Assembly: GCA_040752595.1 (NCBI GenBank)
Contig: JBFMGX010000003.1
Coordinates: 1 to 64,000 of the forward strand
Length of the DNA: 64,000 bases
Origin: Candidatus Zixiibacteriota bacterium
GTDB lineage: Bacteria > Zixibacteria > MSB-5A5 > WJJR01
Reading direction: 5' to 3'
Made by a program: the position numbers and the translations under genes. The notes under the pieces were generated by a model. It was not told where the DNA came from, ran no database searches, and saw only the letters and a list, made by a program, of their open reading frames with translations. Positions 51,995 to 63,800 of this stretch are shown piece after piece (position 1 is the first letter of the stretch; every line of letters begins with the position of its first letter).

Positions 51995-54319
51995 ATGTTC
52001 CAACTCCTGCTGAAGGTCAAACGGTCGCTGGCCGCCAAGTCGCGGGCGCGGCTGGAGCGTTGGTCGAAATCGCGGCGCTATCGCCGGGTGCAGACCGCGT
52101 TCCATGTCTTTCTGGCGCTCGTGATTGTCGCGCTGTCGATCGTGTTGTTCCCCCGGCAGGAGTTGTACTATTCGCCCGATTTCCCGCGGGAAGGCGACAT
52201 CGCCGCGGCTGACATTATCGCGCCCTTCGATTTCCCGGTGCTGAAGACTCCGGAGGAGCTCGACGCCGAGGCGCGTCAGGTGGAACGCGCCACGCCGCCG
52301 GTCTTGGCATACGATCTGGCGATTGCCGACTCGGTGGAGCGGACGATCGGTTTTCTCTTTGATCGGGCCGAGCGTGTGGCGGCGGCGCCGATCTCCGCCA
52401 AGCTGCGTCTGGAGCGGCTGGAGCAGGAGTTTCCCTGGCTGGACTTGGACGGCCTGATCGCGCCGCGCATCGGAGGTGGGTGGCTGGCCCTGCGTTTTGC
52501 GGTGCAAGATGTCATCCGGCGCGAATATTCCGCCGGGCTCTTTCCGGACCGGCATTTCCTCCCCACCTCCGAGAGTCCCTTTGTGCTGGTGCGCCGTCCT
52601 GGCGCCGGCGATCTGCCGCTCCAACGCGAGCAGATTCTCGATGTCGACGCGGCCCGCAGCCGTCTCGATGCCGAGTTGGCCGAAGTGCCCGGTGTCGATT
52701 CGCTCGAACGGGCCGGGCTGGTGCACGTGATCGGCACCATGCTGGCGCCGAACTTGACCTATGATCATGAGACCACGGAGCAGCGACGGCAGGCGCGTCT
52801 GGCGGAGATTCGCCCCTACAAAGTGCGCATCTTTCGCGGCGAGCGGATCGTGGCGAAGGACGAGCGGGTCTCCGCGGTGCATGCGGAACGTCTGGCGGCG
52901 CTGGCACGCGTGCGGGCCGAATCGCAGGAGTACGGCAATCCACTCCTGCGCTGGATTCCCATCGTCGCGCGGGCGGTTCTGGCCGGATTCTGTGTCTCCG
53001 GCATGTGGGCCTACTTCCGCTATTTTCGGCGCGCCTACCTGAGGCGCACCGCCGTCATCCTGCTTTTGGCTGTTGTCTGGACCATCGTTCTGATCCCGAC
53101 GCGTTTCGCGCACAGCGCCGGTTGGCCGGCGATGTATCTGATTCCCATCCCGTTGGCGGCGATTCTGGTCACGGTCCTGGTCGATCTGACGACCGGTCTG
53201 ATCGCGACGGTCTTCCTGTCGTTGCTGATCGGAATCGTCACCGGATTCGACTACACCGTCCTCTTGGTCGGGCTCTCCGCCGGTCTGGTATCGGCGGTCA
53301 GTCTTCGTGTGGTGCGTCGACGGTATGATTTCTATCGTCCCGCGCTGTACGGGTCGCTGGTCTATCTGCTGGCGATCGTGTTGTTGGAATCGCTGCGCGG
53401 CACGGAATCGCACCGGATGTTGGCGGCGGCGGGGTATGGGCTGGTCAATGCCATCGGCGGCGCGGTGCTGGCGGTCGGCGTGCTCCCGGTGTTCGAGTCG
53501 CTGTTCGGTTTCACGACCGATCTGACGCTTCTGGAACTGTCGAACCTCAACCATCCGCTGTTGAAGCGACTGTCGCTGGAGGCGCCCGGGACCTATCATC
53601 ACTCGCTCGTGATCGGCAATCTGGCCGAGGGGGCGGCGGAGGCGATCGGCGCCAATCCACTCCTGGCGCGGGTCGGCGCCTACTTCCACGACATCGGCAA
53701 GATGGAGAAGCCGGAGTACTTCGTGGAAAACATGCGTCACATCAAGAGCAAGCACGACAAGCTTTCGCCGACGATGAGCGCGCTTATACTCGAATCGCAC
53801 GTCAAGGGGGGCCGGGAACTGGCGCTGGAGTACAACCTCCCCGACCCGGTGATCGACTTCATCGAACAGCATCACGGCACGACGACGATGCAGTTCTTCT
53901 ATCACAAGGCGCAGCAGCAGAGTCCCGATGAGCCGGTGCCTGAGGAGGAGTTCCGCTACCCCGGTCCGAAGCCGCAGACGCGGGAGACCGCCATCGTGAT
54001 GCTGGCCGACTCGACCGAGGCGGTCACGCGGACTTTGGACGATCCCAAACCGGGACGGTTGCAGAGCGCCATCAAGAAGGTGATCGCGGACAAGTTCCTC
54101 GCCGGTCAACTGGAAGAATGCAACCTCACACTGCGCGACATCCACAAGATCGAAGAGAGTTTTCAGAAAACCCTCCTGGGTGTCTTCCACCAGCGGATCG
54201 ACTATCCGTCCGCCGTCACGCGCGAAGAGGAAGAGGATACGGTACCGACTCCCAACGGCGGCTTGGCGAACGGTGCCAAGGGGGCGCGGGGGCGCAGGGC
54301 ATCGCGTCCGCCCGTGTAG
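51995..54319 (+). CDS. pgpH: 7TM-HD family phosphohydrolase (PgpH-type, c-di-AMP phosphodiesterase-like)
   Basis: 774 residues. One N-terminal membrane helix (VFLALVIVALSIVLF) precedes an extracytoplasmic 7TMR-HDED region (to about 325), then a bundle of about seven helices (330-500), then a cytoplasmic HD domain: YHHSLVIGNLAEGAAEAIGA near 533, metal-binding HD in YFHDIGKMEKPEYF near 567, and HHGTTTMQFFYHKA near 628. Studied PgpH proteins hydrolyse cyclic di-AMP. No diadenylate cyclase gene is visible in the window. It sits between phoH and ybeY as in many genomes. No good leader is seen before the ATG. Confidence 0.94.
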   Translation: MFQLLLKVKRSLAAKSRARLERWSKSRRYRRVQTAFHVFLALVIVALSIVLFPRQELYYSPDFPREGDIAAADIIAPFDFPVLKTPEELDAEARQVERATPPVLAYDLAIADSVERTIGFLFDRAERVAAAPISAKLRLERLEQEFPWLDLDGLIAPRIGGGWLALRFAVQDVIRREYSAGLFPDRHFLPTSESPFVLVRRPGAGDLPLQREQILDVDAARSRLDAELAEVPGVDSLERAGLVHVIGTMLAPNLTYDHETTEQRRQARLAEIRPYKVRIFRGERIVAKDERVSAVHAERLAALARVRAESQEYGNPLLRWIPIVARAVLAGFCVSGMWAYFRYFRRAYLRRTAVILLLAVVWTIVLIPTRFAHSAGWPAMYLIPIPLAAILVTVLVDLTTGLIATVFLSLLIGIVTGFDYTVLLVGLSAGLVSAVSLRVVRRRYDFYRPALYGSLVYLLAIVLLESLRGTESHRMLAAAGYGLVNAIGGAVLAVGVLPVFESLFGFTTDLTLLELSNLNHPLLKRLSLEAPGTYHHSLVIGNLAEGAAEAIGANPLLARVGAYFHDIGKMEKPEYFVENMRHIKSKHDKLSPTMSALILESHVKGGRELALEYNLPDPVIDFIEQHHGTTTMQFFYHKAQQQSPDEPVPEEEFRYPGPKPQTRETAIVMLADSTEAVTRTLDDPKPGRLQSAIKKVIADKFLAGQLEECNLTLRDIHKIEESFQKTLLGVFHQRIDYPSAVTREEEEDTVPTPNGGLANGAKGARGRRASRPPV

Positions 54320-54321
54320 GA

Positions 54322-54426
54322 CGTGTTGAAGAACCACCTTGGGCAGACACACAGGTCTGCCCCTACGATGGAACCGCAACGTGTTCATCGGGGCGGCCCT
54401 GTGTGGCCACCCGCGCTTTCAACACG
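54322..54426. repeat. Two-hairpin repeat with CGTGTTGAA inverted ends
   Basis: Perfect 9-bp ends CGTGTTGAA and TTCAACACG. Hairpin GGGCAGAC/GTCTGCCC (54341-54362), linker CCTACGATGGAACCGCAACG, then a GGGGCGGCC/GGCCACCC hairpin. The linker matches the 8466 element while the stems differ. Confidence 0.85.
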
Positions 54427-54482
54427 CCTTGTGGAGTGGTTCCGCGCTTGACGCCGTCGGCGTCGATCTGCTTTGTTGTGTC

Positions 54483-55040
54483 ATGATTTGTGCCGCGACC
54501 AGCCCCGCGTCACCGGACGACGATCCTCCCCGAAAATCGGGTCGTCTGCGTGTGAAAGTGTGGCGCGGTGTGAGCCGGGTACGTCTCCCCGCCAGGGACA
54601 TCGTGCGCGCCCTGAATCGTATCGGACGCCGTGAGGCGCACCGCGGCGCAGTGCACGTCATCGTCGTCGACGATCCGCACATGCACGCGCTGAACCGACG
54701 GTTCCGGCGGCGTGACCGCCCGACCGACGTGCTGGCGTTTCCGTTGGCCGACGGGATGGGGGCAATCGACGGCGGTCCGTGGGGCGAAATATACTGCAAC
54801 TACGATCATGCCCGTCGCTGGCGATCGGAGCACGGCGGCACGGTGGCCGCGGAGCTCATCCGGCTGGCGGTGCACGGATACCTGCACCTGCTTGGGTACG
54901 ATCATCACACCGTCGGCCAGCGGCGACGGATGATCGCCGCCGAGAATCGCTGCCTGGCGGCGGCCGGGCTGGTCGACCTCCGTGGGCGCCGGGTGTCGGC
55001 ACAGCCATCGCGACGGGGAGGAAGAGCCGGCCGTGACTGA
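54483..55040 (+). CDS. ybeY: rRNA maturation endoribonuclease YbeY
   Basis: 185 residues from the ATG at 54483; the domain itself begins near residue 20 (LRVKVWRGVSRVRLPARDIV). Diagnostic metal site HGYLHLLGYDHH near residue 132 and TDVLAFPL near 78. YbeY acts in 16S rRNA 3'-end processing and ribosome quality control. The start is uncertain: no strong leader is visible, and the upstream frame runs through the repeat at 54322-54426. The stop overlaps the GTG of the next gene by 8 bases, showing translational coupling. Confidence 0.93.
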   Translation: MICAATSPASPDDDPPRKSGRLRVKVWRGVSRVRLPARDIVRALNRIGRREAHRGAVHVIVVDDPHMHALNRRFRRRDRPTDVLAFPLADGMGAIDGGPWGEIYCNYDHARRWRSEHGGTVAAELIRLAVHGYLHLLGYDHHTVGQRRRMIAAENRCLAAAGLVDLRGRRVSAQPSRRGGRAGRD

Positions 55041-56286
55041 GTTCTTCCTGAGTCTGGCCGTCGTCGCGGTGTTGTTCGCGATCATTTACGGCGTCAGCGT
55101 CGCGGCGATGCGCGTGTTCACGATATCGGGTCCGGCTGCCGATGAGCGAAAGAGGACGGCGCGCCAACGGTTCCTCGATGCCTTCAGCAAGGACCCGCGC
55201 GAACTGCTGTTGGCGGCGGAGCTGCTCAACTCGCTGGTCTTTGTCGCCATCACGGCGGTCGTCATCTGGTCGCTCTCCCGTTTGTGGCAGGAGCGGGCCT
55301 GGCCGACTTTGCCGGCACTGATCATCGCGCTTCTGGCCGTCTGGCTGCTGCGGGTTTTGTTGGGTGACGTTCTGCCGAAGCGTCGGGCGATTGAGCCGGC
55401 GGACTCATCGGACCGTTCACGTCTGGCGGGCTTGGCTCTGATCTACTGGGTGTTTCGTCCCCTGTTGTGGCTGGCGGGGTGGATCACCCGGGCGCGCGTC
55501 GGAAAGCGACCTCCGGCGGAGCGAGAGGAAATCGTCGAACGGGCCATCGACACGTTGGCCGAATCGGCCGGGATGGATGAGCCGGTGATTGAGCCCGATG
55601 AGCGTGCCATGATCGAGGGTGTCATCGGTCTCGAAGGGACCGAGGTTCGTGAAGTCATGGTGCCGCGGGTGGACATCGTGGCCGTCGACGTCCACGCCAC
55701 CGTGGAGGATGTCCGGCGCCGCACGACCGAGTTCGGTCACTCACGTCTGCCGGTCTTCGACGGCGACCTCGATTCGATCGTCGGCATTCTCTACGTGAAG
55801 GACTTGTTCTGTGCCCAGTTGGGCGGGACCATAGACCTGGGAGCGTTGGTGCGGCGCGCGTATGTGGTGCCGGAGACGAAACGGGTCGACGATCTTCTGG
55901 AGGAGTTCAAACGCGAGCGCGTCCACATCGCGATCGTCCTGGATGAGTTCGGCGGCACCGCCGGGTTGGTGACACTGGAGGACATCCTCGAGGAAATCGT
56001 CGGCGAGATCGAGGATGAACACGACCTTGGCCGTCGTCAGATCGAGCACGATACCGACGGCAGCCTGCACGCCGATGGCGTTGTATCGCTGGACCAGATC
56101 GCCGCGGCCTTCGATATCGAATTGCCCGATGAACGATTCGAGACGATCGGCGGCCTCATCTATGATCGTGTCGGCGGCGTTCCGAAAGTCGGACAGTCGT
56201 TCGCCGAGCACGGGCTGGCGATCACCATCGAGCAGATGGACGGTCAGCGCATCCGGCGGGTGCGCATTCGGCGTGCGGCGCGATAG
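55033..56286 (+). CDS. CNNM/CorC hemolysin-family membrane protein with CBS pair
   Basis: 417 residues, GTG start at 55033 with GGGAGGAAG about 10 nt upstream, overlapping ybeY. Residues 1-150 are a CNNM-type membrane domain of about four helices. Two CBS domains follow (residues 205-325; VREVMVPRVDIVAVD, HSRLPVFDGDLDSIVGILYV, HIAIVLDEFGGTAGLVTLED), then a CorC_HlyC domain (340-415; FETIGGLIYDRVGGVPKVG). Such proteins are linked to magnesium or cobalt efflux and homeostasis. In many genomes it lies between ybeY and era, as the order here begins to show. Confidence 0.94.
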   Translation: MTEFFLSLAVVAVLFAIIYGVSVAAMRVFTISGPAADERKRTARQRFLDAFSKDPRELLLAAELLNSLVFVAITAVVIWSLSRLWQERAWPTLPALIIALLAVWLLRVLLGDVLPKRRAIEPADSSDRSRLAGLALIYWVFRPLLWLAGWITRARVGKRPPAEREEIVERAIDTLAESAGMDEPVIEPDERAMIEGVIGLEGTEVREVMVPRVDIVAVDVHATVEDVRRRTTEFGHSRLPVFDGDLDSIVGILYVKDLFCAQLGGTIDLGALVRRAYVVPETKRVDDLLEEFKRERVHIAIVLDEFGGTAGLVTLEDILEEIVGEIEDEHDLGRRQIEHDTDGSLHADGVVSLDQIAAAFDIELPDERFETIGGLIYDRVGGVPKVGQSFAEHGLAITIEQMDGQRIRRVRIRRAAR

Positions 56287-56375
56287 ACGCGCCATCGGGA
56301 ACCGGTCGCGGGCAGATTACGTTATGCACACCGAGGTCATCGTGGGATCGACGACGTCAGGAGGCCTGTGACCCC

Positions 56376-56567
56376 ATGCCGATCTATGTCTACCAGTGCG
56401 CCCGCTGCGGCCATCGCTTTGAGGAGTTGGTGTTCTCGGCGGCCGCGGAAGCGGCCCTGAGATGTCCGCGTTGCCGATCGGAACAGATCGTACGTCAGTT
56501 GTCCCCCTTCGCCACGACGGTCGCTTCCGGCTGCCCGGATCGCTCCTGTGCCGGCGACGGCGGGTGA
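56376..56567 (+). CDS. FmdB-family zinc ribbon protein
   Basis: 63 residues. It begins with the family hallmark MPIYVYQCARCGHRFEEL; the two CxxC pairs (CARC at 8-11, CPRC at 30-33) form a zinc ribbon, and the LSPFA phrase follows. AGGAGG lies about 12 nt before the ATG. FmdB proteins are putative regulators of unknown target. It lies 89 bases after the CNNM gene and 40 bases before the SprT-like gene, all on one strand. Confidence 0.92.
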   Translation: MPIYVYQCARCGHRFEELVFSAAAEAALRCPRCRSEQIVRQLSPFATTVASGCPDRSCAGDGG

Positions 56568-56607
56568 CGTCTCGCCCGTTGACACAACCGGCGGTTGTGC
56601 GGCTTCT

Positions 56608-57228
56608 ATGACGACTCAGGTCGAGCTGTTCGACGGCGCCACAGCGGCCCTGCCGGATGAGGCGGAGTTGCAGCGGCGCTTCACCGTGTTCAATGCCGAC
56701 TTCTTTGCCTCTGAATTGCCGGCTGCGCAGGTCGGCTGGTCGAACCGGATGAGGATTGCGGGGACCTGTGACCGGCGGCACCGGGTGATTCGGCTGTCGC
56801 GCGCCTATCATGAGCAGTTCCCCGGCGACGTCAACGACACGCTCAAACACGAGATGATCCACCTGATGCACGCCGGTCACGACGCGGCCTTCCGGGCCGA
56901 GGCGGAGCGTATCGGCGCCAGCGTGCATTGCCGCGAATACCCGGGGCTTCATCCCCGCGCCCGCCTCACCTACATCTGCCCGCATTGCCGAACCGTGTAC
57001 CATCGTGTGCGCCACGAGCGGCTCTTCTGCGGACGCTGTGCACGAACGCGGCTCGACGAGCGCTTCATGCTGGTCCTGCGGCCTGCGGCCCGTGGTCAAA
57101 AGGCGGCCAAGGCGGCCAAGAAATCGAGGCACTCCGCGACGGCCACCCATTCCCGTCGGCCCGGGCGGCCGCGACAGTCCGCGCTAGGCGACTTGTTCGC
57201 ATCGGGCGTCGCTTCACTGCCACGATGA
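56608..57228 (+). CDS. SprT-like zinc metalloprotease domain protein
   Basis: 206 residues. The SprT fold is marked by LQRRFTVFNADFFASELPA near residue 20, IRLSRAY, and the metal site KHEMIHLMHAGHDAAFRAEA near 90. A zinc ribbon follows (CPHC near 130 and CGRC near 147), then a basic tail rich in Lys and Arg. The SprT/Spartan group includes DNA-protein crosslink proteases; the bacterial members are little studied. A GTG at 56548 in the same frame is possible but overlaps FmdB, so ATG 56608 was taken. Confidence 0.88.
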   Translation: MTTQVELFDGATAALPDEAELQRRFTVFNADFFASELPAAQVGWSNRMRIAGTCDRRHRVIRLSRAYHEQFPGDVNDTLKHEMIHLMHAGHDAAFRAEAERIGASVHCREYPGLHPRARLTYICPHCRTVYHRVRHERLFCGRCARTRLDERFMLVLRPAARGQKAAKAAKKSRHSATATHSRRPGRPRQSALGDLFASGVASLPR

Positions 57229-57468: not shown

Positions 57469-57545
57469 GGCGGTGTAGCTCAGCTGGTCAGAGCAGCGGA
57501 ATCATAATCCGCGTGTCCGGGGTTCGAATCCCTGCACCGCTACCA
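57469..57545 (+). tRNA. tRNA with CAU anticodon, probably elongator tRNA-Met
   Basis: Acceptor GGCGGTG pairs with CACCGCT (G1-U72 wobble); D arm AGCTCAGCTGGTCAGAGC; anticodon stem GCGGA/TCCGC with loop ATCATAA; T arm CGGGGTTCGAATCCCTG; CCA encoded. The initiator features (unpaired 1-72, GGG/CCC anticodon stem) are absent, so it is elongator Met or tRNA-Ile2 with lysidine-modified CAU. Confidence 0.92.
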
Positions 57546-57665: not shown

Positions 57666-58223
57666 ATGGGATTCGAGGCGAAGCGGGTGGAGGAAATCAC
57701 GATACCCCTGGCGGAGTACCCCCATGTGCGCGAGACCGCGACATTGAAGGACGCCATGGCGGTCTTCAAGTGCCAGTTGGTCGTGGAAGGGGAGCGCTCG
57801 TTGCCGCGCGTCGTTTTGGTGCTCAACGCGGCGCGGGAGATCGTGGGGCAGGTGCGGCGGCGCGACATCCTGCGGGGGTTGGAACCGGAGTTTCTTGTGG
57901 CCCGACCAGGGTCGGATCGCCAGGCGCGCGTCGACTTCAACATGGATGCCAATCTCCTCGAGCTCTTCTTTGATCGCGCCGTCGAGGGGATCCGGGAACG
58001 GTCGATGCGCCGGGTGAGTGAGATCATGCTCCCGGTCGAGGTCACGATCAACCACGATGATCACATCATCAAGGCGATTTACGAACTGGTGGACAAGAAT
58101 CTGAGTCTCCTCCCCGTGTTGAAAGACCGAGAGGTCATCGGTGTGGTCCGTTCGGTCGACGTGTTCCGTGAATTGAGCCGGATTGTGCTCCCGGAACACG
58201 ACAACAGTGGGGACTGCGACTGA
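57666..58223 (+). CDS. Two-CBS-domain protein (paralogue of 60490-61026)
   Basis: 185 residues, soluble. CBS 1 (about residues 8-70): ITIPLAEYPHVRETATLKDA, RVVLVLNAAREIVGQVRRRD, ILRGLEP. CBS 2 (about 118-175): VSEIMLPVEVTINHDDHIIK, LLPVLKDREVIGVVRSVD. Between them is a short helical insert (DANLLELFFDRAVEGIRE). CBS pairs bind adenine nucleotides or similar ligands and regulate partner proteins. It lies 46 bases before a DASS transporter; a paralogue lies beside the PPDK-like gene. The shared phrase RRD-[IM]-L-[RQ]-G-L and the same insert point to duplication and a common job. Confidence 0.9.
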   Translation: MGFEAKRVEEITIPLAEYPHVRETATLKDAMAVFKCQLVVEGERSLPRVVLVLNAAREIVGQVRRRDILRGLEPEFLVARPGSDRQARVDFNMDANLLELFFDRAVEGIRERSMRRVSEIMLPVEVTINHDDHIIKAIYELVDKNLSLLPVLKDREVIGVVRSVDVFRELSRIVLPEHDNSGDCD

Positions 58224-58269
58224 TGCATGCCGTGATGCATGCCGCCGGCCGTCGGCAGACGGGAACAGC

Positions 58270-59826
58270 GTGACTGCCCATGCCACGGGGGGAGTCGCGC
58301 CGCCGCGATCGGAGTCGTTCCGCATCGGGACGAGACGATTCCTGTCGCGGGTCGATCCGACGAAGCTGATCGCGGCCGGTACCGGGATTGGTCTTTTTGT
58401 TCTGTTTCTCCTTGTGCCGGGTCTGCCCGACGCCGTCGATCCGGCGGCGCCTGGTCATCTCGTGCCGTTGCCACGCGAAGGGCGGTTGGCCATCGGTCTG
58501 TTCCTGTTGACGGCCACATGGTGGGTGTTCGAGGTGATTCCCGTGGGCATCACGGCCGTCGCCGTCGTCGCTGCGCAGGCCCTGTTTGCCATCGCCAGAC
58601 CGGGCGCGCCGCCGACCAAAGCCTTTACCGACTTCTTCGATCCCGCCGTTTGGTTCATCTTCGGGTCCCTCCTGTTCGGGATGGTGTTTTCCAAGACCGG
58701 CCTGACGCGCCGTCTGACCTACCGAATGGTCGGACTGATGGGCGAACGCACGAGTCTGATTTACCTGGGGTCTTTTCTGATGGTCTTCGTGCTGACGCTC
58801 TTCATGATGCACACGGCCGCCGCCGCGATCTCCTTTCCTCTGCTCATGGCGGTGTATTCGCTCTATGAGGAGAGTGAGCGGCCGACCCGTTTCGGCAAGG
58901 GGCTGTTCATCGGCATGGCCCACGCCTGCGCCTGCGGTAGTCTGGTCACCTATCTCGGGTCGGCCCGAGCGGCGATCGCGGCCCGATACTATGCCCAAGT
59001 GATGCCGGCGACTCTTGCGGAGGGGCACGATCCGATCACCTTCGGAGATCTCGCCTTCTACATGTTGCCGTTGGGCTTGTTCATGGTGCTGGCGCTGTGG
59101 GTTCTGGTCATGATTCTCTTCAAGCCGGAGCGGCCATCGATCCCCGGTCTGCGGGAACGGGCGCGTCAGCTTTCGCAACGGCTCGGTCCGGTTTCCGCCC
59201 GTGAGATCACGTCGCTCGTCATCGTCCTGGGCACCGTATTCTCTCTTCTCCTTTTGCCGTCTTCCGCCGATTCGGGCATCGACAGGAGTGTCATCATCCT
59301 CACCGCCGTCCTGCTCTTCTTTCTGCTGCGCATTCTCAGTATCGACGATCTGGAGAAGGTGCCCTGGAGCATCATGCTCTTGTTCGGCGGTTCGCTGAGT
59401 CTCGGGCTGTGCCTGTGGGAGACCGGAGCGTCGCGGTGGATGGCGCTTCATCTTCTGCCGCTGTTTCGGGATCATCATCCTCTTCTCTTTGTGCTCGTCT
59501 CGTCCTTGGCGATCATGATCATGACCAACCTCCTGGTCAATGTCGCCGTCATCGCGCTCTGCCTGCCGGTGGCCTTGACGGTCGCCCTGTATCTCGGCGT
59601 TTCGGGAGAGGTTGTGCTGTATTCCAGTCTGGCGGCCGCGGGGATGCCGCTTTTGCTGCTCATCGGCGCCGCGCCCAACGTGATGGCGTATCAGAGCAAG
59701 ATGTTCACCCCGCGCGAGTTCTTCGGGGTCGGTCCTTTGGCGAGCGCCGTCGTCATGGGGATCCTGACGCTGTTTGTGGTGTTGGTTTGGCCGATCTTGG
59801 GGATGCCGACGTTCCCAAGGGGATGA
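58270..59826 (+). CDS. SLC13/DASS family sodium-coupled anion transporter
   Basis: 518 residues, about 12 membrane segments. Family features: LLTATWWVFEVIPVGITAVA near residue 80, FGSLLFGMVFSKTGLTRRL near 130, HTAAAAISFPLLMAVY near 180, and LLVNVAVIALCLPVALTVAL with SLAAAGMPLLLLIGAAPNVM near 430-465, the paired sodium/substrate hairpins. Substrates in the family are dicarboxylates, citrate or sulfate; this one is not assigned. The start is a GTG at 58270; no good ATG is available before the first helix, and upstream codons would overlap the CBS gene. Confidence 0.9.
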   Translation: MTAHATGGVAPPRSESFRIGTRRFLSRVDPTKLIAAGTGIGLFVLFLLVPGLPDAVDPAAPGHLVPLPREGRLAIGLFLLTATWWVFEVIPVGITAVAVVAAQALFAIARPGAPPTKAFTDFFDPAVWFIFGSLLFGMVFSKTGLTRRLTYRMVGLMGERTSLIYLGSFLMVFVLTLFMMHTAAAAISFPLLMAVYSLYEESERPTRFGKGLFIGMAHACACGSLVTYLGSARAAIAARYYAQVMPATLAEGHDPITFGDLAFYMLPLGLFMVLALWVLVMILFKPERPSIPGLRERARQLSQRLGPVSAREITSLVIVLGTVFSLLLLPSSADSGIDRSVIILTAVLLFFLLRILSIDDLEKVPWSIMLLFGGSLSLGLCLWETGASRWMALHLLPLFRDHHPLLFVLVSSLAIMIMTNLLVNVAVIALCLPVALTVALYLGVSGEVVLYSSLAAAGMPLLLLIGAAPNVMAYQSKMFTPREFFGVGPLASAVVMGILTLFVVLVWPILGMPTFPRG

Positions 59827-60003
59827 GGATGACGCCCAAGATTCATGTCGTCGCCTCTGGGGGGACCGTCGCGGCTGGACGGACCGTCCCAAGAGCGGCT
59901 GATACGATGACCGGGTGGGAGAATTCCCTTACCCGCTTGGACTTCCGGTTCAAGCGACCTCTCCCGGAGGGAGAGATTGGAGTTCTGCAGAAGGGGATGT
60001 GTC

Positions 60004-60486
60004 ATGGATGAGAAGTTGATCAACCTCCTGATCGTAGATGATGAGGAAACGTTTCTGTGGGCCATTGCCAAGCGTCTGGAGACCCGCGGTTTCAATGTCG
60101 TCGCAGTCACCCGTGGCGAGGCGGCCATTGCGGAGGCGCAGAAGCAGCCGTTCGACATCGCCCTGGTGGATCTGCGCATACCGGGGATGAACGGCGAGGA
60201 GACCTTACGGATCCTGAAGCAGGAGCACCCCTGGCTGGAGGTCGTCATCCTGACCGGCCATGGGTCCGTCGAATCGGCGGTCGAATGCACGAAGGATGGA
60301 GCCCACTCGTATTTGCAGAAACCCTGCGAATTCGACCGACTGCTTGCGGTTCTGACCGAGGCCTACAAGAAGAAAGTCATGAACAAGCTGAAGACTCGCG
60401 AAGAGCGCATGAACGAGTTGATTGACTACAGCCAGTTCAGCACGCCCCTGGCGATTCTCCGGAAGATCCGGCAGTTGGACGAGTAG
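60004..60486 (+). CDS. Stand-alone response regulator receiver protein
   Basis: 160 residues. The receiver domain occupies residues 1-125: acidic pair in LLIVDDEETFLW, phospho-acceptor Asp in ALVDLRIPGMNGEE near 53, Thr in VILTGHGSVESAV near 80, Lys in YLQKPCEFDRLL near 102. The last 35 residues are a charged helix (KKVMNKLKTREERMNELIDY) rather than a DNA-binding domain, so it must act through protein contacts. No histidine kinase is encoded nearby. It is 177 bases after the DASS gene and its stop is 3 bases from that of the converging CBS gene. AAGGGG leads the ATG. Confidence 0.93.
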   Translation: MDEKLINLLIVDDEETFLWAIAKRLETRGFNVVAVTRGEAAIAEAQKQPFDIALVDLRIPGMNGEETLRILKQEHPWLEVVILTGHGSVESAVECTKDGAHSYLQKPCEFDRLLAVLTEAYKKKVMNKLKTREERMNELIDYSQFSTPLAILRKIRQLDE

Positions 60487-60489
60487 GCG

Positions 60490-61026
60490 TTACTCCCGGA
60501 CGGCGCGGGCGATGATCTCACCGATGGCATCCTCGGCATAGATGATCCCCGTGATCTTCCCTCCCTCGACGACGGGAATGAACGTCAGGTTGCGGTCGAT
60601 CATCAGGTACATGACCAATAGGGCGGGTGTGTTCGACTCCACGGTGGCGTGGATCGGGGTCATGAACTCGATGATCTGCTTTTCCAGCAGCCCGCGCAAC
60701 TCCTGCACGGCGCGCTCGGCGTTGAACCCCAGATGATAGAGGTCGAAATCCCCGGCGGCCTCCGGAACGACCGCGAGCTGTTCGGTCTTGTTGCCGGTCC
60801 GCCGCAGTCCCTGGAGCATATCGCGGCGCTGGACCAGGCCGAGCAACTGGTTCTGGGCGCTGAAGACCAGCATGACCCAGGGGACGTTGCGTCCCGGCCC
60901 ACGACGGCTTTCCACGCTCTCCAGCTCCGCCAGCGCCTGGCGGAACGTGAACCAGTAGGGTACGTAGGGAAACGATGACAGCGGGATCATCATCTCACCG
61001 GCGCATTTCATCTCCATCGCTCCCAT
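60490..61026 (-). CDS. Two-CBS-domain protein (paralogue of 57666-58223)
   Basis: 178 residues, same plan as the first CBS protein: MIPLSSFPYVPYWFTFRQAL, VMLVFSAQNQLLGLVQRRDM, LQGLRR, a helical insert (NAERAVQELRGLLEKQ), then EFMTPIHATVESNTPALLVM and LTFIPVVEGGKITGIIYAED. The start is taken at 61026; ATG codons at 61017 and 61011 are alternatives. The start lies inside the 3' end of the PPDK-like gene (32-base overlap), so the two are co-transcribed and probably co-translated. This suggests a direct partnership between the CBS protein and the phosphohistidine protein. Confidence 0.9.
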   Translation of the reverse strand: MGAMEMKCAGEMMIPLSSFPYVPYWFTFRQALAELESVESRRGPGRNVPWVMLVFSAQNQLLGLVQRRDMLQGLRRTGNKTEQLAVVPEAAGDFDLYHLGFNAERAVQELRGLLEKQIIEFMTPIHATVESNTPALLVMYLMIDRNLTFIPVVEGGKITGIIYAEDAIGEIIARAVRE

Positions 61027-63559
61027 TCTCCACCTTCAGTCCGAGTCTTCCGGCGATCTCATTCAGGTACCATTGGGCGCGCGCATCGCTGGACAAGGTC
61101 ATGTCGAGCTGCTTGGTCAAGATGGTGAGTCGTCCGAGCAGGTGCAGCCGATCGAGGATTTCCCTCCGGCTCCGATATGCCACCAATGAATCGAGGAAGT
61201 CCCCCTGGCCGGAGTTCTCGAATCCCATCCGTTTCAACAGCTCCGCGATCAACCAGACCCGGCGAATGCGGCGTTCCAGGGGAGCGCCGCCCAACTTGAA
61301 CTGCATACGAATGTAGTTCTTCTCCGGCTCGGAGGCGGCGATCGCCTCGATCGTGGAGAAGTGGTATCCCATGCGCAGGTTGAGGAGCATGTATTCCTGG
61401 CTGAGGAAGGCGTAGCTGTTTTCCGAGAATTCCGGTTGATGGCCGCCCTGGATGTTGGCGCCGACGACGGCCAGGAATCCTCTCAGATCCGCTGGGACCT
61501 GACTCTCCGGCCACCCCTCCAACAGGATACCGTCCCACAGGGATTTCATCGGCTGCGAGGCGATCTCGCTTTCCTGCTCCCAGCGCCGGCCGGCGACAGC
61601 ATCGTAGTCGCGGTCGAGGTAGATGATATTGATCCAGAGCGGGATCTTGGTCTTCAGGCGCAGCCCGATGTCGTTCTTGTGCTTCGTTCCCCTTAAGGCG
61701 GCGAAGATGCTCTCCATCGCCTTCTGATGGATGAACCGGGTGATGTCGTGCAACGTGCGGCAGTTCTCGGCCGTGAACCGGGGGTCGCTGGGGTGAATCA
61801 CGTCGAGGTGCACGATCGGTGCGATCATCGCGTCCAGGAGCGGCGCGCCTACGGGCGTCGTGGTGGCGCTGGTGATTTGACCCGGCTGCACGACCCAGTC
61901 GGGATGCGCGCCGTCATAGACGACACCGTGGGTGGCGTCCATGGTGACCGGTCGCCCGGCCGGGAGCCGCAGGGCATCGTTCATGCCGGCGATGGTGGGT
62001 ACGGAAAGCTCGCGCGCGATCGTGGCCAGGTGGCTGGCACTCCCGCCCACCATCGTGATCAGGCCGCTGATCCGACGCATCACCGCCACGAGGTAGGGCG
62101 AGGGATTGGGGGCGACCAAGACGACACCGTCCGGCACCGCACCGAGCGCGGCCGGCGAGTTGACATGGTACACCGGCCCGACACCCGCCCCTGAGGAGAT
62201 CGGAGTGCCTCCCTGCAGCAGTACGACCGGATCGACGTCCGACGGCACTTGAATCTGGGTCTTGGGCGGCGGCGTCCGGAGGGGACGCGTCTGCAACAGG
62301 TACAACTCTCCCGAGCGGTCCAGCGCCCATTCGATGTCCTGCGGCTCGCCAAAATGGGTCTCAAGCGCGACGCCCCATTGTGCCAACCGCCCCAGTTGCT
62401 CGGTTGTGAGCGAAGGAGTGGATTGTTCCTGCGGCGCGATCGGGTACTCCTGCACGCCGCCGTCCGGGCTCAGGCGGAGCCCGGTCGGTTTCCTGGCCAC
62501 GCTGGCGTAGACGACGCTGCCGTCGGCACGGGAGACGTGAAAGACGTCCGGAGTCACTGTTCCGTTCACCAGCGGGATGCCCAAGCCGAAAATCGCATTG
62601 ATGAGAACGTGACCGGCGGCGGGATGGACCGGGTCGTGCGTGTAGACCACGCCGCTGGAGGCGGCATCGACCATTTCCATGCAGGCGACGCCCATGGCCA
62701 GGTCCAGCTCGGCCAGGGAATGGCTCGACAGGTAGTAGATCACCGCGGGCGTGAACTTGCTGGCGAGAATCTGCTTGTAACGTTCCAGCAGATCGTCCCG
62801 TCGTACATTCAGGTAGGTGCGGTACTGTCCCGCAAACGTGAAGGCGCTGTCTTCCCCGACCGCGCTGGAGCGCAACGCGAAACCGTCGCGGCCGGTGCGG
62901 GCGGATAATTCATTAAAGGCGCTCCGAATCGCGGCGGCGAGATCTGCGGGAACCGGCTTGGCGATCACGAGCTCTTGGATCTCCTCGCTCACCGTTTCCA
63001 GGTGCTCATACTTGCGGATTCGGACCGTCGCCAAAAGCCGGCGAATCCGCTCGCTCAAGTCGTTGACATCGATGAAATGCTGATAGGCCCAGGCACTGAT
63101 GGCGAACCCATCCGGTACCGGCAGCTTCACCCGCGATTTGATCTCGCCCAGGTTGGCGTTCTTGCCGCCGACCGAGTTTGCCCGGTCCCGATTCAACCGC
63201 CCGAAGGGTATGATGTACTCGTCGGCAGGAATCCGCCGCGCCTGGGGCAGAAGCGCCTCGACCTCGTGCGAAATCGCGCTCAGCCGTTCACGCAGAATCA
63301 GATAGTCACTGCCCCCCAGCTCGATCATCCGCTCGATGATGTCGCTTACGCCTTCGCGGATCTCGACGAATTCGTCCCAGAGGGCGACGATCGAGTCTAG
63401 GCGGCGATCCTTATGCTTCTCCTCCAGCCGACTGACGAGCTTGAGAACCTGGTTGTGCCGGTCCAGGAGCTGCCGGAACACCGAGAACTTGCGCTGGATG
63501 TCCTGCAGGATGTCCCGGCGCTTGGCGCGGGAACTCCCGAAGATTCGGTCCCACCACAT
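60995..63559 (-). CDS. PPDK/PEP-synthase-like ATP-grasp and phosphohistidine protein lacking the PEP barrel
   Basis: 854 residues. 1-115: helical, charged N-terminal region (KRRDILQDIQRKFSVFRQLL, coiled-coil-like). 118-455: PPDK_N ATP-grasp (NSVGGKNANLGEIKSR, FALRSSAVGEDSAFTFAGQY, DIEWALDRSGELYLLQTRPL). 465-560: phosphohistidine swivel domain with the His in GGSASHLATIARELSVPTIA near residue 510. From about 575 the chain (IHPSDPRFTAENCRTLHDIT, RFIHQKAMESIF, SQEYMLLNLRMGYHFSTIEA) shows no PEP/pyruvate TIM-barrel motifs. So it should be able to move phosphate from ATP to its His but not to make PEP in the usual way. It overlaps the CBS gene downstream. Confidence 0.9.
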   Translation of the reverse strand: MWWDRIFGSSRAKRRDILQDIQRKFSVFRQLLDRHNQVLKLVSRLEEKHKDRRLDSIVALWDEFVEIREGVSDIIERMIELGGSDYLILRERLSAISHEVEALLPQARRIPADEYIIPFGRLNRDRANSVGGKNANLGEIKSRVKLPVPDGFAISAWAYQHFIDVNDLSERIRRLLATVRIRKYEHLETVSEEIQELVIAKPVPADLAAAIRSAFNELSARTGRDGFALRSSAVGEDSAFTFAGQYRTYLNVRRDDLLERYKQILASKFTPAVIYYLSSHSLAELDLAMGVACMEMVDAASSGVVYTHDPVHPAAGHVLINAIFGLGIPLVNGTVTPDVFHVSRADGSVVYASVARKPTGLRLSPDGGVQEYPIAPQEQSTPSLTTEQLGRLAQWGVALETHFGEPQDIEWALDRSGELYLLQTRPLRTPPPKTQIQVPSDVDPVVLLQGGTPISSGAGVGPVYHVNSPAALGAVPDGVVLVAPNPSPYLVAVMRRISGLITMVGGSASHLATIARELSVPTIAGMNDALRLPAGRPVTMDATHGVVYDGAHPDWVVQPGQITSATTTPVGAPLLDAMIAPIVHLDVIHPSDPRFTAENCRTLHDITRFIHQKAMESIFAALRGTKHKNDIGLRLKTKIPLWINIIYLDRDYDAVAGRRWEQESEIASQPMKSLWDGILLEGWPESQVPADLRGFLAVVGANIQGGHQPEFSENSYAFLSQEYMLLNLRMGYHFSTIEAIAASEPEKNYIRMQFKLGGAPLERRIRRVWLIAELLKRMGFENSGQGDFLDSLVAYRSRREILDRLHLLGRLTILTKQLDMTLSSDARAQWYLNEIAGRLGLKVENGSDGDEMRR

Positions 63560-63649: not shown

Positions 63650-63800
63650 ACCCCACACCCCTTCGACTTCCTTCGACTCCGCTCAGGACAAGTCGCTCAG
63701 GGCAGGCCTACCCTCTCCCCAGAAGGGAGAGGGGATGATAACCTCTCCCTCCGGGAGAGGTCGATCCGCCGCAGGCGGATCGGGTGAGGGAGTTCTTTCG
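63650..63800. repeat. CCCTCTCCCC-type hairpin repeat
   Basis: CCCTCTCCCCAGAAGGGAGA, CCTCTCCCTCCGGGAGAGG and GATCCGCCGCAGGCGGATC hairpins in series, with TTCGACTTCCTTCGACTCCG and CTCAGGACAAG flanks. It fills the space between the PPDK-like gene and the last partial gene. Confidence 0.8.

Follow-up and report, generated by a model that had tools for sequence, protein, structure and literature searches.

A 64,000-nucleotide stretch of DNA from a Candidatus Zixiibacteriota bacterium (GTDB lineage Bacteria; Zixibacteria; MSB-5A5; WJJR01), comprising positions 1 to 64,000 of the forward strand of contig JBFMGX010000003.1 in assembly GCA_040752595.1 and called here the window, raises the question of why a protein resembling pyruvate phosphate dikinase (PPDK) is encoded beside two CBS-domain proteins, a DASS/SLC13 sodium:anion symporter and a receiver-only response regulator. 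Our results suggest, with a probability of roughly 0.6, that the locus is one form of a module controlling the uptake of sulfate or another sulfur oxyanion in dissimilatory sulfate reducers. The PPDK-like dikinase probably has a regulatory role. As the gene set tracks dsrAB, sulfate is a likelier cargo than a carbon compound. The five genes are as follows.

57666..58223, + strand: CBS-1, a CBS-pair protein adjoining the transporter (CBS1 family; open reading frame (ORF) list, Pfam and family alignment).
58267..59826, + strand: DASS/SLC13 sodium:anion symporter (probable GTG start at 58267; mechanical ORF from 58183).
60007..60486, + strand: receiver-only response regulator, RRw type (probable ATG start at 60007; Pfam and alignment).
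60490..61026, - strand: CBS-2, a CBS-pair protein accompanying a distinct clade of PPDK-like proteins (Pfam, alignment and tree).
60995..63559, - strand: PPDK-like dikinase (Pfam, AlphaFold2 and an alignment of 114 sequences).

The ORF list and Pfam confirmed the five genes and coordinates given in an earlier note on this DNA, together with the 32-base overlap of the PPDK-like and CBS-2 genes (60995-61026) and the 3-base gap between the converging receiver and CBS-2 genes (60487-60489). The Pfam domains of the five proteins were, in order, CBS, Na_sulph_symp, Response_reg, CBS, and PPDK_N with PEP-utilizers. The two CBS proteins are indeed paralogues, with 30% identity over 175 residues (E 6e-23). 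Because alignments of homologues point there, the true starts of the DASS and receiver genes are suggested to lie at about 58267 (GTG) and at 60007 (ATG) rather than at the upstream TTG codons.

Relatives of the locus were collected with the C-terminal domain of the PPDK-like protein as the query, covering 132 Zixiibacteriota genomes and genome contigs of multiple phyla; the multi-phylum search gave 162 candidate stretches, 80 of which were taken for analysis. The domain was found in 34 of the 132 Zixiibacteriota genomes, and the other proteins of the window recurred around the PPDK-like relatives in neighbourhoods from about 15 phyla. Among 53 distinct near-type PPDK-like loci, each with at least 5.5 kb downstream, 37 contained a CBS protein of the window's CBS families, 36 a receiver of the RRm type, 35 a histidine kinase within 6.5 kb of the PPDK-like gene, and 21 a DASS transporter. 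The commonest order was the PPDK-like gene followed by a Cache/PAS histidine kinase, a receiver, CBS1 and DASS. In a second type, which includes the window locus, CBS2 follows the PPDK-like gene; one such locus (L077) has CBS1 and DASS further on, and a kinase, receivers and a TauE/SafE transporter before the PPDK-like gene. The CBS2 loci formed one clade of 12 rows in a quick tree of the PPDK-like proteins (SH-aLRT 99), in which Zixiibacteriota were mixed with Calditrichota, Poribacteria, Fibrobacterota, Myxococcota and others, and this mixing of phyla points to horizontal transfer.

The steadiest part of the gene set was the CBS-DASS pair, which was also present in dsr-positive genomes where the PPDK-like protein is missing. 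A CBS gene of the window family lay directly upstream of 36 of the 45 near-complete module-type DASS genes in the 132 genomes, so the outcome that the earlier note had named as refuting its proposal, homologues occurring mostly apart, did not hold. In dozens of genomes the homologues are neighbours, an arrangement far beyond what chance would give, and together they represent a real conserved module. The accompanying claim that the system works with no histidine kinase is correct for the window, as a search of the source genome gave no kinase match on its contig 3, and incorrect for the gene set, as the kinase counts above and a kinase on contig 17 of the source genome show. In two loci (L072 and L082) a receiver of the window type directly follows a Cache-type kinase, which implies that the missing kinase is a trait of the window locus only.

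The gene set was closely associated with dissimilatory sulfate metabolism. With dsrA/dsrB matches in Zixiibacteriota accepted at E 6e-20 or better (weak ones in G127 and G108 were excluded), dsrA or dsrB was present in 33 of 34 genomes with the PPDK-like protein versus 20 of 98 without it (Fisher p 4e-16), in 45 of 49 genomes with the module DASS (p 3e-22) and in 39 of 42 with the CBS proteins (p 4e-18). In a sample of 297 Acidobacteriota genomes, dsrA was detected at E below 1e-50 in all 14 PPDK-like carriers versus 13 of 283 others (p 6e-17). These p values ignore the kinship of the genomes, and the same pattern appeared in two phyla. Across phyla, 42 of the 49 genomes reached through the loci of PPDK-like carriers passed the dsrA cut-off and two more had a dsrB-type match, the rest yielding fragments or nothing. 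The PPDK-like gene and dsrA were on one contig, about 5 to 25 kb apart, in at least seven genomes (G084, G077, G139, G249, G209, G436 and G300), and a CBS-DASS pair was found at a similar distance on the dsrA contig of G078.

In the source genome, contig 17 carries dsrAB, aprBA (adenosine 5'-phosphosulfate (APS) reductase), sat (ATP sulfurylase) and dsrC, together with genes for a DsrP-like NrfD protein and a DsrK-like ferredoxin. From gene order and Pfam we call the set sat-aprBA-dsrAB-dsrC-dsrMKJOP, in which subunits M, J and O are putative. An ORF of 81 residues between dsrB and a CobB/dsrN-like gene, considered for dsrD, had no match in Pfam or the PDB. By its gene content the pathway would run in the reductive direction. 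The same contig encodes a Cytidylate_kin2-family protein, a receiver, a Cache-domain histidine kinase and another receiver. The kinase gene (L173, 10879-12468) contains a single in-frame TAG between its sensor and kinase parts, which marks either a disrupted gene or an error in the sequence. Proteins of the Cytidylate_kin2 family recur beside PPDK-like and two-component clusters (L155, L076, L073, L074, L194 and L197), and in L076 the protein is fused to a receiver.

Structural analysis of the PPDK-like protein showed a helical N-terminal region (residues 1-110, AlphaFold2), an ATP-grasp PPDK_N domain (residues 128-435), a phosphohistidine swivel domain (residues 476-545) with the histidine at H510, and an α/β C-terminal domain at about residues 560-845 (AlphaFold2). 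In the alignment of 114 sequences, K133, R230, E410, Q423 and H510 were identical in every member and D408 and R425 nearly so. The C-terminal domain contained ten residues, H604, D605, R608, H611, P640, H733, G757, R767, D787 and D819, identical in all sequences covering them. The best PDB matches of the ATP-grasp and histidine domains were PEP synthase (best 2ols) and rifampin phosphotransferase (RPH). The protein shares PPDK_N and the phosphohistidine domain, with all catalytic residues, with phosphoenolpyruvate (PEP) synthase (PpsA) and PPDK, and differs from them in its helical N-terminal region and its new C-terminal domain. Pfam gave no match to the PEP/pyruvate-binding barrel (PEP-utilizers_C) in it, while a separate canonical PPDK with this barrel is encoded in the same genome. 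An ordinary PEP synthase, the identity that the earlier note had set against its own reading, is thereby ruled out. Because the dikinase residues are kept and the barrel is replaced by the C-terminal domain, autophosphorylation by ATP is expected and PEP/pyruvate chemistry is not.

Exchange of the barrel for another acceptor domain is also a feature of RPH, whose drug-binding domain sits between the ATP and histidine domains, whereas the extra domain of the PPDK-like protein follows the histidine domain. The protein scored 234 bits against the NCBIfam model of RPH, below the cut-off of 999, and no match was found between the two acceptor domains. Neither Pfam nor a sequence-profile search of the PDB matched the C-terminal domain, and Foldseek returned nothing at E <= 0.001, a lack of match that does not establish a new fold. 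With VIA-align, the top Z of 6.4 belonged to unrelated folds, creatine/arginine kinases appeared weakly at Z of about 4, and the fold was left unassigned.

In CBS-1, Pfam scored two CBS stretches and the ribose-type Asp positions were kept, with the family motif YPHiPyWFTlRQ diverged; in CBS-2, the C-terminal stretch alone was scored and the motif FP..PYWFTxRQALAE was kept. The Asp ending each CBS motif was retained in both proteins in the alignment. The DASS protein was homologous to VcINDY/SLC13 sodium:dianion symporters over its full length, with VcINDY and NaDC3 as the best PDB matches, and differed in the two SNT signatures for substrate and sodium, which are conserved as A-H-T and M-N-V in the module family and read M-H-T and V-N-V in the window protein. 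The receiver possessed the acidic pair, phosphoacceptor Asp, Thr and Lys (D/D/T/K) and a conserved tail of about 40 residues. Response_reg was the sole Pfam family above the cut-off in this 169-residue protein, with no DNA-binding domain. PADLOC gave weak generic matches to the receiver and nothing else, and an anti-phage system was rejected.

In the proposed mechanism, the DASS protein would import the anion together with sodium, and the CBS-pair proteins, by binding adenine nucleotides or APS, would tune the transporter or its partners. Adenylates could report sulfate flux because ATP is converted to AMP when sulfate is activated and APS reduced. The Cache-domain histidine kinase encoded elsewhere in the genome may sense a ligand outside the cell and phosphorylate the receiver, which, lacking a DNA-binding domain, would have to target a protein. 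The PPDK-like protein is predicted to transfer a phosphoryl group from ATP to H510 with release of AMP; its swivelling domain would carry the group to the C-terminal domain, which would hand it on to some small molecule or protein. The PPDK-like protein may also respond to the ATP:AMP ratio. Of this scheme, the gene content, its conservation, the co-occurrence with dsrAB and the intact catalytic residues of the dikinase are observations, and the cargo, ligands, phosphoryl acceptor and direction of control are inferred.

Several results weigh against this interpretation. The PPDK-like protein was missing in 20 of 53 dsr-positive Zixiibacteriota and thus is not required for sulfate uptake. Co-occurrence amounts to association rather than mechanism, and related genomes do not count as independent observations. 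The SNT signatures of the DASS family differ from those of VcINDY, so these residues are no proof of sulfate as the cargo, and the kinase assigned to the receiver lies on another contig with its frame interrupted by the TAG. The strictly invariant C-terminal residues would also fit a plain metabolic enzyme. Such an enzyme is the main rival to a regulatory dikinase, possible although not likely: it would phosphorylate a metabolite, or regain ATP from AMP in the reverse direction, for the energy metabolism of sulfate reduction, and would adjoin the transporter through a common pathway. The intact ATP-grasp and histidine residues, the active-site-like character of the ten invariant positions and the production of AMP and pyrophosphate by sulfate activation all agree with it. 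However, the genome already has a canonical PPDK, and the paralogues number several per genome, many of them with a histidine kinase/receiver of their own and TauE or DASS, which has the look of a regulator set.

The cargo and the phosphoryl acceptor were considered in the same way. Transport of a dicarboxylate as a carbon source, with the dsr association reflecting an anaerobic lifestyle, accords with the dicarboxylate carriers among DASS members and with the VcINDY and NaDC3 matches, but we regard it as improbable given the near-exclusive co-occurrence with dsr in two phyla, the linkage to dsrAB and the conserved alteration of both SNT signatures. With the set tracking dsrAB, the earlier proposal of carbon or anion uptake is narrowed to sulfate as the likelier cargo. 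Phosphotransfer from H510 to the receiver in place of a histidine kinase, also proposed in that note, fits the lack of a kinase in the window and the intact H510 and receiver Asp; it is nevertheless very unlikely, because a kinase belongs to the set in most relatives, directly adjoins the window's type of receiver in L072 and L082, and has a matching counterpart on contig 17. A doubtful extension of the control-module reading makes the PPDK-like protein the founding member of a new signalling dikinase class specific to sulfate respiration. Its C-terminal domain, without a recognised fold, would make or modify a dedicated signal from the ATP-derived phosphoryl group, either a phosphorylated partner or a small molecule that carries the phosphate and is read by the CBS proteins. 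This signal would match sulfate uptake to cell energy, and copies of the protein, each accompanied by its sensor kinase and anion transporter, would recur in about 15 phyla.

More distant PPDK-like proteins also had kinases, receivers and TauE transporters as neighbours, with up to five PPDK-like paralogues per genome in Acidobacteriota. In Desulfobacteraceae relatives the PPDK-like gene stands beside histidine kinase/response regulator genes and TauE or DASS. TauE/SafE (sulfite exporter family) was found near distant paralogues instead of DASS in L065, L067, L068, L071, L074, L126, L185 and L186.

Around the locus, a tRNA-Met gene (57469-57545) ends 120 bases before CBS-1, and the PPDK-like gene is absent from two genomes of the same genus, which makes an insertion beside the tRNA possible. 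The palindromic element CCTCTCCCNNNGGGAGAGG occurs as two inverted copies (96%) at 59955-59978 and 63740-63763, flanking the receiver, CBS-2 and PPDK-like genes on both sides; these are the only two copies in the 64-kb window, versus 0.03 expected. The upstream genes (51995-57228) look ordinary and encode a CNNM/CorC protein, an SprT-like protein and, judged from their translations, an HD-domain membrane protein and a YbeY-like protein.

Clusters of this type have been described in part. DASS proteins of Desulfobacteraceae were tied to sulfate by expression and proteome data (PMC5840216, PMC11887813). A DASS cluster spanning 30.5 kb, with genes for CBS-domain and two-component proteins, has been described, such clusters being reported for Desulfosarcina variabilis 3be13 and other sulfate reducers; sulfate outside the cell and adenylates or APS inside it were proposed to control the uptake of sulfate (PMC11887813). 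In the parts of that work compared here, the likeness consists of a DASS gene adjoining CBS-domain proteins, as in the window, and of two-component genes, Cache-domain kinases included, in sulfate reducers; the host of the window likewise has genes for dissimilatory sulfate reduction. The Cache kinase is in the cluster there, while it is absent from the window and present in most relatives' clusters and on contig 17; the response regulators there are of the WalR type, whereas the window receiver has no DNA-binding domain; and the present hosts span Zixiibacteriota and many further phyla. The main text of PMC11887813 does not mention the PPDK-like protein, nor do the main texts of the other dsr surveys compared. 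The open literature on transport control in sulfate reducers, which gave PMC11887813 and PMC5840216, yielded no published mention of the dikinase, its C-terminal domain or the cross-phylum link to dsrAB. The earlier statement that no such system had been described was thus too strong. As a whole, the earlier interpretation holds for the conserved module and the dikinase distinct from PEP synthase, and not for a kinase-free or undescribed system. The cluster type is already published; what appears new is the family of dikinases, with a domain that has no assignment, and the tie to dsrAB across phyla.

Respiration with sulfate, a main route of anoxic carbon oxidation, begins with uptake of the anion, and how this uptake is matched to energy supply is unsettled. 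The dikinase family defines a conserved domain for which no family is annotated, and it is a candidate marker, at the genome level, for dissimilatory sulfate metabolism. Being almost confined to genomes that carry dsrAB, it offers a concrete protein for probing the coupling of energy and uptake.

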